Source of the DNA: Erysipelotrichaceae bacterium
GTDB taxonomy: Bacteria; Bacillota_I; Bacilli_A; Erysipelotrichales; Erysipelotrichaceae
Length of the DNA stretch: 21,870 nt
Assembly: GCA_024681275.1 (NCBI GenBank)
Contig: JAILBD010000153.1
Span: 1 to 21,870 of the forward strand
Reading direction: 5' to 3'
Below are positions 2,002 to 7,134 of the stretch, in pieces. A program made the position numbers and the translations under genes. Numbering within the stretch: position 1 is the stretch's first letter; every line of letters starts with the position of its first letter. The notes beneath the pieces are model-generated. The model worked only from the letters and a program-made list of their open reading frames with translations. It was not told where the DNA came from and searched no databases.

Positions 2002-2025
2002 AAACAGCTTCACAGCTGTTTTTTT
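2002..2025 (+). terminator. Intrinsic terminator of the aldo/keto reductase gene
   Basis: AAACAGCT and AGCTGTTT (2002-2009 and 2014-2021) form an 8-bp stem with a 4-nt loop, followed by a T run. It begins one base after the reductase stop codon and contains the stop codon and last codons of the convergent PAP2 gene. Confidence 0.85.
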
Positions 2026-2936
2026 CTGATCTTCGCCATCCAGGCAAATGAATACGGATAGACCCCGAATGCCATGAACGTCGATATACCATAGCGGAAC
2101 GTCCGATACAGAAGATAAGGCCGGCTGCCATAGGTCAAAAATCCGGATGCCACTTTCAGCAGTTCTGTGAAACCCAGGAAAACTGCAGCTGCCCCAAGCA
2201 GACGCATCCCGATCTGCGCAAGATCATCCGTATCTTCAAAACGCACATATCTCTCCTGATAGAGATCTCCGCACATGAAACCCATCAGCAGGCCGCAGAC
2301 CGCAAAATAATCTTCGCTGATGCAGAAAGCCATGCCCGGAACGCACAGAGCCGCCAGCAGAAGATAGGCTCTCTTTCGCTCAGCCTTCCTGTACAGGAGA
2401 TCAAAAAGGAAGACGCCCGCAAGACCGATCAAAGCACCGGCGATGACATCGCCGGGATAGTGAACGCCCAGAGAAAAACGGGAGATGGCGACCAGAATGA
2501 CCAACGGAAGAAGAAACAGAGAATATTTCGGCTTTCCGCTCTTCAGGCCAATGCCTGTTGCCAGAGAGGAAGCAAAAGTCACGTGCGCACTGGGAAAAGA
2601 AAAGCCCTGTTTGATCGGATCGTAGATGTCCTCATTGGGTTCGACCGGCTTGAGACATTCGATCGATTCATTCACGATATAGGGACGGATACGGAAGACC
2701 AGATTCTTGATCATGTCCGTCACGACCTGACAGGTCAGCGCGCTCAGGATCACATACCTGCCCCACTCTTTTTTATTGCTGAAATAGAGAACGGCAACGA
2801 TCAGCGCTCCAAAGACCGGTTCCCCGAAATACGTGAAAAGGACAAAAACATGCTTTAAAAAAGGGAACTGAGAGATCAGTTCCTGCAGCGATATGATGAG
2901 ATCGACTTCCCAATCAAATTGAAAAACGCTGCCCAT
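2010..2936 (-). CDS. PAP2-family membrane phosphatase (undecaprenyl-pyrophosphate / lipid phosphatase type)
   Basis: A 308-residue polytopic membrane protein with the three-part PAP2 signature: K77...R84-P85, PSAH at 115-118 (a variant of PSGH) and SR at 152-153 with His159 and Asp163. These residues form the acid phosphatase active site that dephosphorylates lipid pyrophosphates on the outer membrane face. Several hydrophobic helices flank the motifs, and an extra C-terminal block (roughly 180-308) adds more, making it longer than minimal PgpB-like enzymes. It is last in a unit with murT-like and gatD-like genes: its ATG starts one base after the gatD-like stop, so translation is coupled. 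That context favours recycling of undecaprenyl pyrophosphate, or another cell-wall lipid carrier step, over general phospholipid metabolism (inference). Confidence 0.88.
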   Translation of the reverse strand: MGSVFQFDWEVDLIISLQELISQFPFLKHVFVLFTYFGEPVFGALIVAVLYFSNKKEWGRYVILSALTCQVVTDMIKNLVFRIRPYIVNESIECLKPVEPNEDIYDPIKQGFSFPSAHVTFASSLATGIGLKSGKPKYSLFLLPLVILVAISRFSLGVHYPGDVIAGALIGLAGVFLFDLLYRKAERKRAYLLLAALCVPGMAFCISEDYFAVCGLLMGFMCGDLYQERYVRFEDTDDLAQIGMRLLGAAAVFLGFTELLKVASGFLTYGSRPYLLYRTFRYGISTFMAFGVYPYSFAWMAKIRKKQL

Positions 2937-2937
2937 C

Positions 2938-3624
2938 CTATTTTCTCTTTTTCAGTTCCCTCAGAGTCGTCTGATATGCATCCTCCTCGTAAGGGTAAGC
3001 GATCTTATGATACTTTCCCTTCATCAGGATCGAAACGATAAAGCTCATGAAACAGGGATTCTTCACCAGGACCGGACCGATGATATGCGTTCCGAACAGA
3101 TTGCGGTAGCGGTATCCTTCGTATTCGTTATCCTTAAGACCCTCATAGCGGAAATCATAATCAAAAAGCTTATGTTCAAGACCGCCTTCGATCAGCGTTG
3201 AACGATTGATGAAACCAACGACCTCGCCGATCTCGCTGTTCTTCACGATGACATCTCCTGTGTAACGTTTTTCAGTCGTCACGACATCGAAACCGACCAG
3301 ATCAAGAGCTTTCCTGCCATCTATCCTTGAAGCAGCGACTTCCATGGCGTTCCCGGTCAGAAACAGGACCTTGCCTTCTTCCACATACTTCTTCAGATAA
3401 TACTTGTATTTGTTCAGCTCATCCAGAGCGACCATCAGATTCTTCTCAGTCCCGGAACCCATATAGATGAGATCGTAGGAATCCGGATCAAAACTCTCAT
3501 AGACTTCCCTTCGATCGACGATGACCTCAACGCCCTGATCTTCCAGGTGCTTTTTCAAAAGGGTGACATTGGCATGATCACCATAGAGATTCATCAGATT
3601 CGGATACAGATGCAAGATCCTCAT
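2938..3624 (-). CDS. GatD-like subunit of a MurT/GatD complex, glutaminase Cys and His missing
   Basis: A 228-residue class I glutamine amidotransferase-fold protein matching GatD, the partner of MurT that normally supplies ammonia for amidation of D-Glu in lipid II. Matching features are the N-terminal Y.N.MNLYGD segment, the TTEKRYTGD block (Arg120, counterpart of the GatD substrate arginine) and the LFGT..IGPVL.KNP block. The nucleophile position reads LFLTGNAM instead of L.ICGGYQ, putting Thr90 where Cys94 of Staphylococcus aureus GatD stands. The histidine position reads GTHIIGP instead of GTYLHGP, putting Ile182 in place of His189. The glutaminase should therefore be dead, though a shifted His180 is nearby. 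Its ATG overlaps the murT stop by 4 nt and an AAGGAGG site lies in the murT end. Names are from homology; function is probably altered. Confidence 0.85.
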   Translation of the reverse strand: MRILHLYPNLMNLYGDHANVTLLKKHLEDQGVEVIVDRREVYESFDPDSYDLIYMGSGTEKNLMVALDELNKYKYYLKKYVEEGKVLFLTGNAMEVAASRIDGRKALDLVGFDVVTTEKRYTGDVIVKNSEIGEVVGFINRSTLIEGGLEHKLFDYDFRYEGLKDNEYEGYRYRNLFGTHIIGPVLVKNPCFMSFIVSILMKGKYHKIAYPYEEDAYQTTLRELKKRK

Positions 3625-4946
3625 TGTACGGTGACCTCCTTAAGCAGTTTTCCCTCGTCAGAGAAACAGGTCAGGGCAAAGAGCTGCCCCTCCGTATGAT
3701 CTTTCAGATATTCGACAGCATCATGTGTCTGTCTGAAAGAGACGACTTTATCCATGTCGATGCCCGCGTATTCAAGTCTGATCGCCACATCGGCAATATA
3801 TTTTCCGGCGATGACGATCTTTTTGACATGTTCGTTATTCAGATACTCGAATCGGATATCCCACAACCAGGAGGTATCGGAAGTGAAATACTTGCGGCTG
3901 ATATCATCGATGATCAGCAGAAGAGTCACTTCTTCTCTGGAAGAGACATATTCCAGATTGCGGTCATAGGAAACGGTATTCTCATGTTTTGAGATCAGCA
4001 GAGTCCCTTCCTGTTCACCGGCTTTAAAGGTCTTGATACGACCATTCCTGATCAGGTAATCATTCAGCACTTCACAGATCAGGCTCGGTCTGATGCCCAG
4101 CAGGGATGTGGCCGCAAAAGAAGCCAGCACATTGTACGCATTGAAGATCGTATTGAACGCCAGATCGAGCGTGTATTCATCGTTGATCGTGATCGTACCC
4201 TTGTTCAGATCCAGATCGCTGATCACATAAGCGGGATCCTGCCTTCTGAATCCGCAGTTTGGACACTCGTACTTGCCCACATGGGCGAACTGCCTGTACT
4301 CATAGACCATCTTCTTCTTGCATACAGGGCAATAGAAGCCATCATCATAAATGCTCTGACAGTTCTCGGAAACATACTGGTTGTCCTCAATGCCGAAATA
4401 GATGGTCTCGTTATTGAACTGCGTTCCCAGCGAACTGACCAAAGGATCATCGGCATTCAGGATCAGGATGGATCCTTCGTGGATCGACTTCCTGATATCC
4501 GACAGGACATATTCCGGATGACCGTTCCTGGTCATCTGATCACGATAGAGATTGTTGATGACATAGTATTTCGGGGTGATATAGCTGAAGATGTGCTTCG
4601 CATACCTCTCATCAGCCTCGATCAGCAGGACATCTTTGTTGAATCTGCCGCTCAGGCTGCTGTTTGAAAGGACCAGAGTCGTCACACCCTCGATCTGATT
4701 GGAACCTTCATAGTTGTACGCCAGACTCATACCGGCTGCTTCGATGATCCCGTGTATCATCTCCACGGTCGAAGTCTTGCCATTGGAACCGGTGACGGCA
4801 ATGATGTTCTCGGGCAGTTCGATCTGAGACAGGATATCAGGACAGATCTTCAAAGCCAGCTGACCCGGGAAACTTGAACCGCGTCCGAAATACTTGCATA
4901 TCTTTTTTGCCAGTTTACAGATTATGATCGCTATGTACTTTCGCAT
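3621..4946 (-). CDS. MurT-like Mur ligase (lipid II isoglutaminyl synthase type), divergent C-terminal domain
   Basis: A 441-residue Mur ligase relative. The ATP loop is TGSNGKTS (52-59), followed by the MurT-type EGSNQIEG segment (80-87) and NNLYRDQMTR (131-140). The MurT-specific zinc ribbon is intact with Cys206, Cys209, Cys228 and Cys231. Canonical MurT activates the D-Glu alpha-carboxyl of lipid II with ATP so that ammonia from GatD can attack. In the C-terminal DUF1727 domain DTSW (357-360) is kept, but the strongly conserved NPAG after a lysine is replaced (Lys320, then HENTVS), NDN.ADG is changed to DDISRKYFTS, and the usual C-terminal PTYT motif is not recognisable. The first gene of murT-gatD-PAP2; predicted leaderless, with TATAAT 6 nt before the ATG. 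The acceptor amine may differ from ammonia (inference). Confidence 0.88.
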   Translation of the reverse strand: MRKYIAIIICKLAKKICKYFGRGSSFPGQLALKICPDILSQIELPENIIAVTGSNGKTSTVEMIHGIIEAAGMSLAYNYEGSNQIEGVTTLVLSNSSLSGRFNKDVLLIEADERYAKHIFSYITPKYYVINNLYRDQMTRNGHPEYVLSDIRKSIHEGSILILNADDPLVSSLGTQFNNETIYFGIEDNQYVSENCQSIYDDGFYCPVCKKKMVYEYRQFAHVGKYECPNCGFRRQDPAYVISDLDLNKGTITINDEYTLDLAFNTIFNAYNVLASFAATSLLGIRPSLICEVLNDYLIRNGRIKTFKAGEQEGTLLISKHENTVSYDRNLEYVSSREEVTLLLIIDDISRKYFTSDTSWLWDIRFEYLNNEHVKKIVIAGKYIADVAIRLEYAGIDMDKVVSFRQTHDAVEYLKDHTEGQLFALTCFSDEGKLLKEVTVQ

Positions 4947-4960: not shown

Positions 4961-4990
4961 TAAAGAAAAAGAGTTATTCACTCTTTTTCT
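4961..4990 (-). terminator. Intrinsic terminator of metG
   Basis: An 11-bp perfect inverted repeat, AGAAAAAGAGT (4964-4974) and ACTCTTTTTCT (4980-4990), with a 5-nt loop and T-rich 3' side on the minus strand. The metG stop codon (4989-4991) lies in its 5' arm. The stem is A/T rich, so strength is uncertain. Confidence 0.7.
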
Positions 4991-6917
4991 AACATACGAT
5001 CGAACCCGGTTCCATGTCGGAACTGAGCAGTTCGAGCTTCTCCTTGCCGTCGACTTCTCTGACTGCCGACAGCAGCATACCGTTGGAATCCAGTCCTCTG
5101 ATCTTGCGAGGCTTCAGGTTCATGACGGCGATGACGTTCCTTCCGACCAACTCCTCCGGCTTGTAGTATGCCGCAACGCCGGAAAGGATCTGACGCTGCT
5201 CATAGCCGAAGTCGACATTGAAGACCAGGATCTTGTCGGCATTCGGATGTTTCTCACAGCTGAGTACCTTGCCCACGACCATTTCGACCTTTTCGAAATC
5301 GCTGAATTCGATCTCCGCCTTATGCTCGACCTTCTGGGCAGGCTTATCCAGATAGGCATGGACTTCCTCCATCGTCTTATCGGCATCCAGTCTCTGGAAA
5401 AGTGCTTCCGGTCTCTCTGTGACCTTGCTGCACTCGTAATTGCCGAAGCTGCTCAGTGAATCATAGGATGTCACAGCTGTACCGAGCTGTTCGAATACTT
5501 TCCTGCTTGTTTCAGGCATGAACGGTTCCATCAGAACGGCACCGAAACGGATGCCTTCCAGCAGATTATATAGAACGGTGTTGAGGCGTGCCTTCTGGTT
5601 CTCGTCTTTTGCCAGAGTCCAAGGCGCAGTCTCATCGATATACTTGTTGCATCTTCTGAAGATCTCCATGATCGCTTCGATCGAATCGCCGACTCTCAAG
5701 CCATCCATCTTCTCTTCGACAGTCTTCACGCCGTTGAGGATCGTCTCTTTGAATTCTTTGTCCAGTTCCTCTTCAACGAAGTCCCTGTTCAGCTGACCGC
5801 CAAAATACTTGTTGGTCATAGCCACGGTCCTGTTGACCAGGTTTCCATAGACGTTGGCCAGATCGGAATTGATCCTCTCGATGACCAGCTCCCAGGTGAT
5901 CGTGCCATCCTGGGCAAAAGGCATCTCATGCAGGACGTAGTATCTGACGGCATCGACGCCGAAGAACTTCACAAGATCGTCCGCATAGATCGCATTGCCT
6001 CTAGACTTGGAGATCTTGTCCTCTCCCACCAGCATCCACGGATGACCGAAGACCTGCTTCGGAAGCGGAACATTCAGCGCCAGCAGCATGATCGGCCAGT
6101 AGAGGGTGTGGAAACGGATGATGTCCTTGCCAATCAGATGCAGATCCGCCGGCCAATACTTTTTGTAGAGATCTCCATGATCGCCATCCACATCATAGCC
6201 AAGTCCGGTGATATAGTTGCTCAAAGCATCGATCCAGACATAGACGACATGCTTTGGATCGAAATCGACCGGAATGCCCCACTTGAAAGAAGTGCGGGAG
6301 ACACAGAGGTCCTGAAGGCCCGGCTTCAGGAAGTTGTTGATCATCTCGTTCTTCCTGGACTCAGGCTGTATGAACTCCTCATGGTCATTGATGTACTGTT
6401 CCAGCGTCTTCTGATACTTGCTCAGTTTAAAGAAGTAGGATTCTTCCTTCTCCTTATGGACCTCTCTGCCGCAGTCCGGACACTTGCCGTCGACGAGCTG
6501 TGAATCCGTCCAGAAAGACTCGCAAGGTGTACAGTACCAGCCCTCATATTCGCTCTTGTAGATGTCGCCCTGATCGTAAAGCTTCTTGAAGATCTTTTTG
6601 ACCTGTCTTTCATGATCATCATCCGTCGTACGGATAAAGCGATCATATGAGGTATTCATCAGATCAAAGATACGCTTGATCTCAGCGGCCTGTACATCGA
6701 CGAATTCTTTCGGGGTCATGCCGGCTGCCTTGGCCTTCTCCTCTATCTTCTGACCGTGCTCATCTGTGCCGGTCTGGAAATAGACATCGTAACCCAGCAT
6801 CCTCTTATACCTTGCGATCGCATCCGCCATGATGATCTCATAGGTGTTGCCGATATGCGGTTTGCCGCTGGCATAAGCGATCGCAGTAGTGATGTAATAC
6901 TTTCCTTTGTTCTCCAT
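4989..6917 (-). CDS. metG: Methionyl-tRNA synthetase with C-terminal tRNA-binding domain
   Basis: A class I aminoacyl-tRNA synthetase that charges tRNA-Met. The start is the ATG at 6917 (MENKGKYYITT...), 642 residues, with GGGAGG 5 nt upstream; the longer frame would run into the T-box leader and is rejected. The HIGH-equivalent is HIGN (21-24) and the KMSKS-equivalent KISKS (301-305). A zinc knuckle with Cys129, Cys132, Cys146 and Cys149 marks the zinc-containing MetG form common in Firmicutes. The last about 100 residues (from FSDFEKVEMVVGKV) are an OB-fold EMAPII/Trbp111-like tRNA-binding domain that usually mediates dimerisation. Expression is controlled by the T-box directly upstream. 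A terminator overlaps its stop codon. Confidence 0.97.
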   Translation of the reverse strand: MENKGKYYITTAIAYASGKPHIGNTYEIIMADAIARYKRMLGYDVYFQTGTDEHGQKIEEKAKAAGMTPKEFVDVQAAEIKRIFDLMNTSYDRFIRTTDDDHERQVKKIFKKLYDQGDIYKSEYEGWYCTPCESFWTDSQLVDGKCPDCGREVHKEKEESYFFKLSKYQKTLEQYINDHEEFIQPESRKNEMINNFLKPGLQDLCVSRTSFKWGIPVDFDPKHVVYVWIDALSNYITGLGYDVDGDHGDLYKKYWPADLHLIGKDIIRFHTLYWPIMLLALNVPLPKQVFGHPWMLVGEDKISKSRGNAIYADDLVKFFGVDAVRYYVLHEMPFAQDGTITWELVIERINSDLANVYGNLVNRTVAMTNKYFGGQLNRDFVEEELDKEFKETILNGVKTVEEKMDGLRVGDSIEAIMEIFRRCNKYIDETAPWTLAKDENQKARLNTVLYNLLEGIRFGAVLMEPFMPETSRKVFEQLGTAVTSYDSLSSFGNYECSKVTERPEALFQRLDADKTMEEVHAYLDKPAQKVEHKAEIEFSDFEKVEMVVGKVLSCEKHPNADKILVFNVDFGYEQRQILSGVAAYYKPEELVGRNVIAVMNLKPRKIRGLDSNGMLLSAVREVDGKEKLELLSSDMEPGSIVC

Positions 6918-6934
6918 AAATACCTCCCTAAAAC

Positions 6935-6979
6935 AAAAAAGGTGATCACAAGGGCGCTCAAGGCGCGGTACCACCTTTA
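6935..6979 (-). terminator. T-box leader terminator hairpin before metG
   Basis: On the minus strand AAAGGTG (6973-6979) pairs with CACCTTT (its other arm near 6938-6944), followed by a run of T residues; an inner GCGC/GCGC helix lies between. The 5' arm shares bases with the T-box sequence, so the antiterminator and this terminator exclude each other. Confidence 0.85.
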
Positions 6980-7128
6980 TTTCTAACTTCACACTCTTAA
7001 CGCGAGCACACGTCACTGCCTACCTATCGACAGCGATGTTCAGGATCCATCTTCATCCGATCTCCCTGCTATCTTCCACCAACCGATAACTCTCTGTAAG
7101 ATCCTTCGGATGATCTATCCATCAAAAC
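6935..7128 (-). promoter_or_regulatory. T-box riboswitch controlling metG
   Basis: An untranslated leader of about 190-210 nt. The T-box sequence AGGTGGTACCGCG lies at 6964-6976 (minus strand) and is unmistakable. Upstream are the Stem I landmark AGAGAGTTATCGGTTGG and a specifier region in which GAAG is followed by ATG (7048-7050), then GATCCTGA. ATG is the expected methionine specifier; placing it by position in the conserved pattern is from memory. Uncharged tRNA-Met should stabilise the antiterminator and allow metG transcription. The specifier identification is less certain than the T-box itself. Confidence 0.9.
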
Positions 7129-7134
7129 ATCTTT

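Follow-up and report, generated by a model that had tools for sequence, protein, structure and literature searches.

A divergent MurT/GatD pair of gut Bacillota whose GatD-like subunit lacks the glutaminase residues

The window, the whole stretch of 21,870 nucleotides from an Erysipelotrichaceae bacterium (GCA_024681275.1, contig JAILBD010000153.1), encodes on its reverse strand a MurT-like ligase and an adjacent GatD-like subunit from which both catalytic residues of the glutaminase are lost. Judged by its sequence, the GatD-like protein is unable to hydrolyse glutamine via the known Cys-His mechanism, and the pair probably takes its nitrogen from a different source or joins a different group altogether. 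Our leading, still tentative reading is a divergent D-Glu amidase that works with ammonia only and has retained the dead glutaminase subunit. The stem peptide owes its charge to MurT/GatD, an enzyme reported to be essential in both S. aureus and S. pneumoniae. With a natural clade that has glycine in place of the cysteine, the label glutamine amidotransferase is misleading in many gut bacteria, where ammonia or another amine would be used; if this amine were an amino acid, the pair would be a candidate D-Glu-substituting enzyme.

Loss of the glutaminase residues in the GatD-like subunit

The GatD-like subunit (228 amino acids, 2938..3624, reverse strand; PF07685, 3.3e-07) retains the GatD fold and adjoins MurT. 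In the alignment, the S. aureus motif TICGGYQ is replaced by LTGNAME and GTYLHGP by GTHIIGP. Gly91 (codon 3352..3354, reverse strand) occupies the site of the catalytic Cys94 and Ile182 (codon 3079..3081, reverse strand) that of the catalytic His189 in our alignment of distinct GatDs. Arg120 (codon 3265..3267, reverse strand), the equivalent of the glutamine-capturing Arg128, is kept. Alanine mutants of C94, H189 and R128 of S. aureus GatD are each reported to be inactive in glutamine deamidation (PMC5871853). A protein search for relatives of the GatD-like subunit gave 1551 matches at E <= 1e-5, and the residue counts of this search refer to the best 120 of them, the window's own protein included. 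The Cys94 column is G in 120/120, the His189 column is I in 110, S in 8 and L in 2, and Arg120 is R in 120/120. The loss of residues is no decay, because all of these best 120 proteins are without both Cys and His. The loss of the glutaminase residues that a preliminary description of this DNA had implied is thus real.

The exact pairing of Cys94 depends on the alignment. HMMER aligns it to T90, while the larger alignment places it at G91 without a gap, and in the AlphaFold2 model of the GatD-like protein a strand ends at residue 90 and a helix begins at 91. There is no Cys under either pairing. Thr90 as a nucleophile is weakened as a candidate by the shift to G91.

The same loss defines a large clade. 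We aligned 196 distinct GatDs, of which 74 carry the Cys, all of these with the His too, and 122 do not; loci L224-L256 were excluded by the filter, among them L226, which has CGGYQ and HGP. In the FastTree phylogeny a single branch with support of 0.955 sets the 74 Cys-bearing GatDs apart, with the exception of L268, which has D at the Cys column and groups with the canonical GatDs. L268 was removed from the residue table, leaving 121 Cys-less GatDs. The Cys94 site is G in 120 of these and A in one, and the His189 site is variable (I 55, T 42, L 14, H 4, others). The Arg128 site is R in 115, the Gln98 site is E in 103 and D in 8, and the capping Tyr is kept in 110/121. A scan of genomes gave 163 confirmed loci; among the best 80, 79 are readable in frame, L021 being the one that is not, and 0/79 have a Cys at the elbow. 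Clade members include Flavonifractor sp. An112 (L079), Pseudoflavonifractor phocaeensis (L074), Ruminococcus sp. zg-924 (L046) and Pseudoruminococcus massiliensis (L057). A viral scan gave no relative. Among the papers listed by our searches of open-access literature, a body of text outside which most subscription journals fall, we found no description of the clade.

The MurT-like ligase and the attacking nucleophile

The MurT-like ligase (441 amino acids, 3621..4946, reverse strand) contains both the Mur ligase middle domain and the MurT_C domain (PF08245, 2.4e-12; PF08353, 7.2e-21). It shows the P-loop GSNGKTS, the GSN acceptor loop, E110/D112/E113, the RDQMTR loop, the Cys4 zinc ribbon and, ahead of SDTSW, the new loop ISRKYF. 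We observe the same retention in 117 MurTs that stand beside Cys-less GatDs, where K57 and E110 are found in 117, R140 in 115 and N83, D112 and E113 in 114 each, and the zinc Cys are kept in 111-117. The enzyme looks competent from these residues, with its second-substrate region rebuilt. The earlier proposal that MurT is still fit to activate the D-Glu carboxyl agrees with catalytic residues kept in the window and in 114-117/117 partners.

The pair resembles the MurT/GatD of S. aureus, S. pneumoniae and S. pyogenes in gene pairing, in both folds, in the MurT catalytic residues and Cys4 zinc ribbon and in the GatD Arg and capping Tyr. It differs from them through the exchange of Cys94 for Gly, of His189 for Ile, Thr or Leu and of Gln98 for Glu, and through rebuilt DNAAD and KNP motifs of MurT. 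The two proteins also fall far short of the NCBIfam equivalog cut-offs, the GatD-like one scoring 87 and 75 bits against 400 and 450, and the MurT-like one 206 and 224 bits against 800 in both cases.

Reaction, substrate and product of the pair are inferred. Judging by its residues and by what the enzymes of S. aureus and S. pneumoniae do, MurT would phosphorylate the D-Glu alpha-carboxyl of the lipid-linked stem peptide with ATP, and free ammonia, in place of glutamine-derived ammonia, would be the attacking nitrogen. The GatD-like subunit would be an obligatory structural partner and perhaps the ammonia entry, much like the inactive glutaminase domain of the carbamoyl phosphate synthetase CPS1. 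This reading leads because the engineered S. aureus GatD C94G has lost the use of glutamine and yet, at pH 8.5, supports the amidation of lipid II with NH3 as before, GatD still being needed (PMC3266927). Gly is the natural residue at the C94G position in 120/121 sequences of the clade. The engineered and natural forms are alike in their Gly at the nucleophile position and intact MurT, and the window form differs in being natural and clade-wide and in having lost the His too. The term non-amidating in the preliminary description is too strong, given the amidation by C94G. A precedent for a retained inactive glutaminase domain beside an active ATP-dependent synthase that uses free ammonia is CPS1, although its synthase is unrelated and its Cys is replaced by Ser (PMC4655335).

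Several observations weigh against ammonia as the nucleophile. At pH 7.5 neither S. aureus MurT/GatD nor C94G used NH3 or NH4Cl (PMC3266927), so that the clade would need further adaptation. The dead pocket is near-invariant among the best 120 proteins (T90 119, G91 120, N92 118, A93 120, M94 117, E95 119, R120 120), whereas the pocket residues of a mere scaffold should drift. The charge changes in MurT run the wrong way for ammonium: D139, present in 72/72 canonical MurTs, is T in 81/117 partners of Cys-less GatDs, and the second D of DNAAD is exchanged for K or R in 97/117. The kept pocket, the change from acidic to basic and the missing use of NH3 at pH 7.5 favour an amino-acid nucleophile.

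The main alternative, which we regard as possible yet less probable, is an amino-acid ligase independent of wall type. Here the MurT-like protein would join an amino acid or another carboxylate-bearing amine to the D-Glu alpha-carboxyl, and the GatD-like protein would be a scaffold or ligand sensor. The altered and lengthened DNAAD site is SRKYF in the window (residues 350-354, 3885..3899, reverse strand). At the residue-352 column the canonical D (72/72) gives way to a basic residue (K 89, R 8 of the 117 partners); an insertion of two residues, often YF (Y 87, F 79 of 117), lengthens the site, and most partners have K-H-E-N where canonical MurTs have K-N (H 81, E 87 of 117). The loop thus turns basic and longer where MurE binds its amino acid. 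Munch et al. likened the MurT motif DNAADD, the one rebuilt here, to the L-Lys-binding motif DNPAND of MurE and state, with data not shown, that S. aureus MurT could stand in for MurE in vitro and ligate L-Lys (PMC3266927). MurT and the Mur ligases share ATP-dependent carboxyl activation, with the amino-acid motif of MurE lying in the region matched by DNAAD (PMC3266927); MurT differs in having no UDP-binding N-terminal domain (PMC6113224) and in pairing with GatD. In addition, the K/R is not explained by the third residue of the stem, since in genomes with a DNPR-type MurE the canonical MurTs have D in 9/9 and the partners of Cys-less GatDs K in all 4/4 read.

On the other side, the altered loop is modelled poorly, with a mean predicted local distance difference test score (pLDDT) of 58 for residues 351-360. 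The residues of the gate and the capping Tyr (110/121) are kept, which fits ammonia. The MurT opening that faces GatD, whose acidic residues have been termed a negative gate (PMC6085368), stays acidic, with D or E at D202 in 114, at D363 in 116 and at D357 in 93 of 117. The mutual exclusion with canonical pairs described below likewise argues for the canonical role. A more far-reaching form of the amino-acid alternative would take the whole large gut-Bacillota clade to have turned into an amino-acid ligase for the lipid-linked D-Glu alpha-carboxyl, with the dead pocket as ligand sensor, and perhaps to start group B-like cross-bridges in some lineages, perhaps in that of the window; we hold this to be a shade more doubtful still.

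Genome distribution, wall type and the less likely readings

Canonical and Cys-less pairs were not observed together in the sampled genomes. In the order of G002, 76 of 148 sampled genomes have a MurT_C match; by score, 52 of them fall into the canonical range, 24 into the low range and 0 into both. The GatDs fetched for the canonical range carry Cys in 30/30 (30 of 53 matches fetched) and those of the low range are without it in 27/27. Independence would give about 8 genomes with both ranges, an expectation that ignores shared ancestry. This mutual exclusion suggests the same role for both forms. As support for the ammonia-only amidase it is weakened by being uncorrected for shared ancestry and by most classes being taken from score ranges instead of read sequence. 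In the family of G008, 36/61 genomes have exactly one MurT_C match each, and in its phylum 62/199 genomes have a match. Within this family the MurE motif is DNPR in 11/11 canonical-range genomes with the MurE locus read (nine with verified Cys) and in 5/5 with a verified Cys-less GatD. For Oscillospiraceae there were 16 canonical-range loci, with GatD not found in L264 and L272, and 20 low-range matches, of which 14 loci were read, L274 and L280 yielding no GatD. The FemAB search in Oscillospiraceae does not separate the forms, with a match in 3/20 low-range and 5/15 canonical-range genomes. From Bacillota_A, 30 canonical-range loci were considered, two of them yielding no GatD (L143, L151). 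Among 13 weaker matches fetched there, L212, L214 and L216 have no readable GatD and L221-L223 and L226 are canonical; the His is kept beside Gly in L218-L220 and beside Ala in L213, and it is lost beside Gly in L215 and L217.

Group B cross-bridge synthesis is known only from organisms without diaminopimelic acid (DAP) in the stem. The preliminary description had proposed the pair as a candidate for this pathway, and we judged the wall type of the window lineage from the genomes of relatives by gene motifs. By motif alone, the Cys-less GatD is found beside a DNPR (meso-DAP-type) MurE in 5/5 of those Oscillospiraceae genomes that gave a reading of both genes, Flavonifractor sp. An112 among them, and relatives in the order Erysipelotrichales with Cys-less GatD and the MurE motif EDPR (G001, G016, G108, G110, G146) have two FemABs per genome. 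As the clade also occurs in these DNPR and FemAB-bearing genomes, group B is rejected as a general explanation, and the proposed link between the variant and group B walls is not supported. Judged by these motifs, the variant follows no single wall type.

In the lineage of the window itself, a group B cross-bridge ligase is unlikely, with some evidence on its side. The window-like genomes G002, G004, G124, G127 and G145 share the unusual MurE motif DDPS. DapF gave no match in any of ten genomes (five DDPS, five EDPR), and a full FemAB was not found in the DDPS group, where the matches are weak (22-39 bits) in four of five genomes and absent in G004. Group B chemistry could explain this combination, and Holdemania filiformis and Erysipelothrix rhusiopathiae are tabulated as B1delta (PMC4062643). 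Against it stand the occurrence of the same clade in DNPR Oscillospiraceae and EDPR sisters with two FemABs, and divergent FemAB-like open reading frames (ORFs) of 303-330 amino acids (L312-L316), seen by weak match and reading by eye in G002, G124, G127 and G145 and also in G003. From these gene motifs the window lineage could have an unusual wall.

In genomes with a window-type pair we also noted a second MurE-like protein with a broken P-loop, for example GNYGRC or GCDGQS (L287, L289, L290, L292, L295, L297, L299, L301, L302, L304). Its gene neighbours one for a MiaB-like protein and, in most cases, deoC- and phoH-like genes as well. G011 has an intact-looking MurE (GTSGKT) at this place; it showed no MurT_C, DapF or FemAB match, as a possible Erysipelothrix might, yet carries his genes, and was not used for the group B comparison.

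Glutamine hydrolysis by the GatD-like protein through other or relocated residues is improbable. T90, N92, E95 and R120 are conserved together and could be imagined as a replacement, and H180, two residues ahead of the lost His, is present in 119/120 of the best proteins. Across the Cys-less clade, however, H180 is H in only 77/121, and no column of the best 120 proteins has Cys in more than 14.2%. A second kind of GatD, reached through the protein of G122, has G in 31, S in 14, other residues in 3 and Cys in 0 of 48 sequences at the Cys position. Since Ser occurs in 14/48, this position is not always free of a side chain outside the window's kind, which would suit relocated chemistry; in S. 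aureus, C94S is inactive, with in vitro lipid II amidation abolished (PMC6113224). That the pair is a non-functional remnant, as the absence of both catalytic residues might suggest, is hardly credible given that both window genes are intact and that loci from Erysipelotrichaceae and Clostridia alike show strong conservation of the pocket.

Other kinds of pairs and the gene neighbourhood

Beyond the 48 second-kind sequences above, a further 116 GatDs of this kind, among the best 120 of 1025 matches, have G in 115, S in 1 and Cys in 0 at the same position. In the listed second-kind GatDs (P0121-P0284, n=164), Ser stands at the old Cys94 position in 15/164, and a Cys near residue 11 occupies one column in 95%, close to the Tyr that caps the old active site. 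Two Cys-less pairs that differ in kind by motif are found in G002, G004, G006 and G120, and at L059 they lie in tandem. An ATP-grasp gene adjoins the second-kind pair in five loci (L091, L092, L093, L195, L206), with PF14397 in L091, the one scanned, and a gene resembling MurJ or polysaccharide flippases lies near the pair in L091 and L092. A second-kind pair with its ATP-grasp gene is a possible separate cell-envelope ligase system. In L190, a third flippase-like gene neighbours a pair of the kind seen in the window. The clostridial loci L218, L219 and L220 represent a third, intermediate kind, in which the GatD elbow reads TGSSLS and HGP is nevertheless kept; their neighbours are an amidohydrolase gene (scanned in L218) and, by eye, a DegV-like gene.

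In the window, the position given earlier for the three genes (2010..4946) is exact, with the ORFs for PAP2, GatD-like and MurT-like proteins at their coordinates. The GatD-like and MurT-like genes overlap by 4 bp, and a gap of 1 base separates the GatD-like gene from that of the PAP2-family membrane phosphatase (308 amino acids, 2010..2936, reverse strand; PF01569, 1.1e-21). The catalytic motifs of PAP2 proteins are KX6RP, PSXH and SRX5HX3D, and all three are intact in the window protein at residues 77, 115 and 152. Of 28 loci whose titles name Erysipelotrichaceae or Solobacterium (Firmicutes in one case), 20 have PAP2 next to the pair, as judged by looser motifs and adjacency, and an ORF with the PAP2 motifs occurs in 0 of the other 52 loci, where stricter motifs were sought anywhere in the locus. 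The PAP2 linkage may be plain synteny, because metG and other neighbours are shared in related loci as well. PAP2 is rejected as a defining part of the system. Its probable role is that of a lipid-phosphate phosphatase which shares no more than its location with the pair; it is a lineage-specific neighbour outside the conserved pair, for which a lipid II-linked role had been suggested.

Upstream on the same strand lies metG (4989..6917, reverse strand; start at 6917 set by eye; PF09334, 4.9e-117 for 4989-6935), preceded by a T-box leader (6947-7134, reverse strand; RF00230, 100.2 bits). A TATAAT hexamer is seen by eye just ahead of the MurT start and is absent from the output of the promoter scan. 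With the MurT start 42 bases past the metG stop, the murT-gatD-PAP2 genes could share control with metG through its T-box leader.

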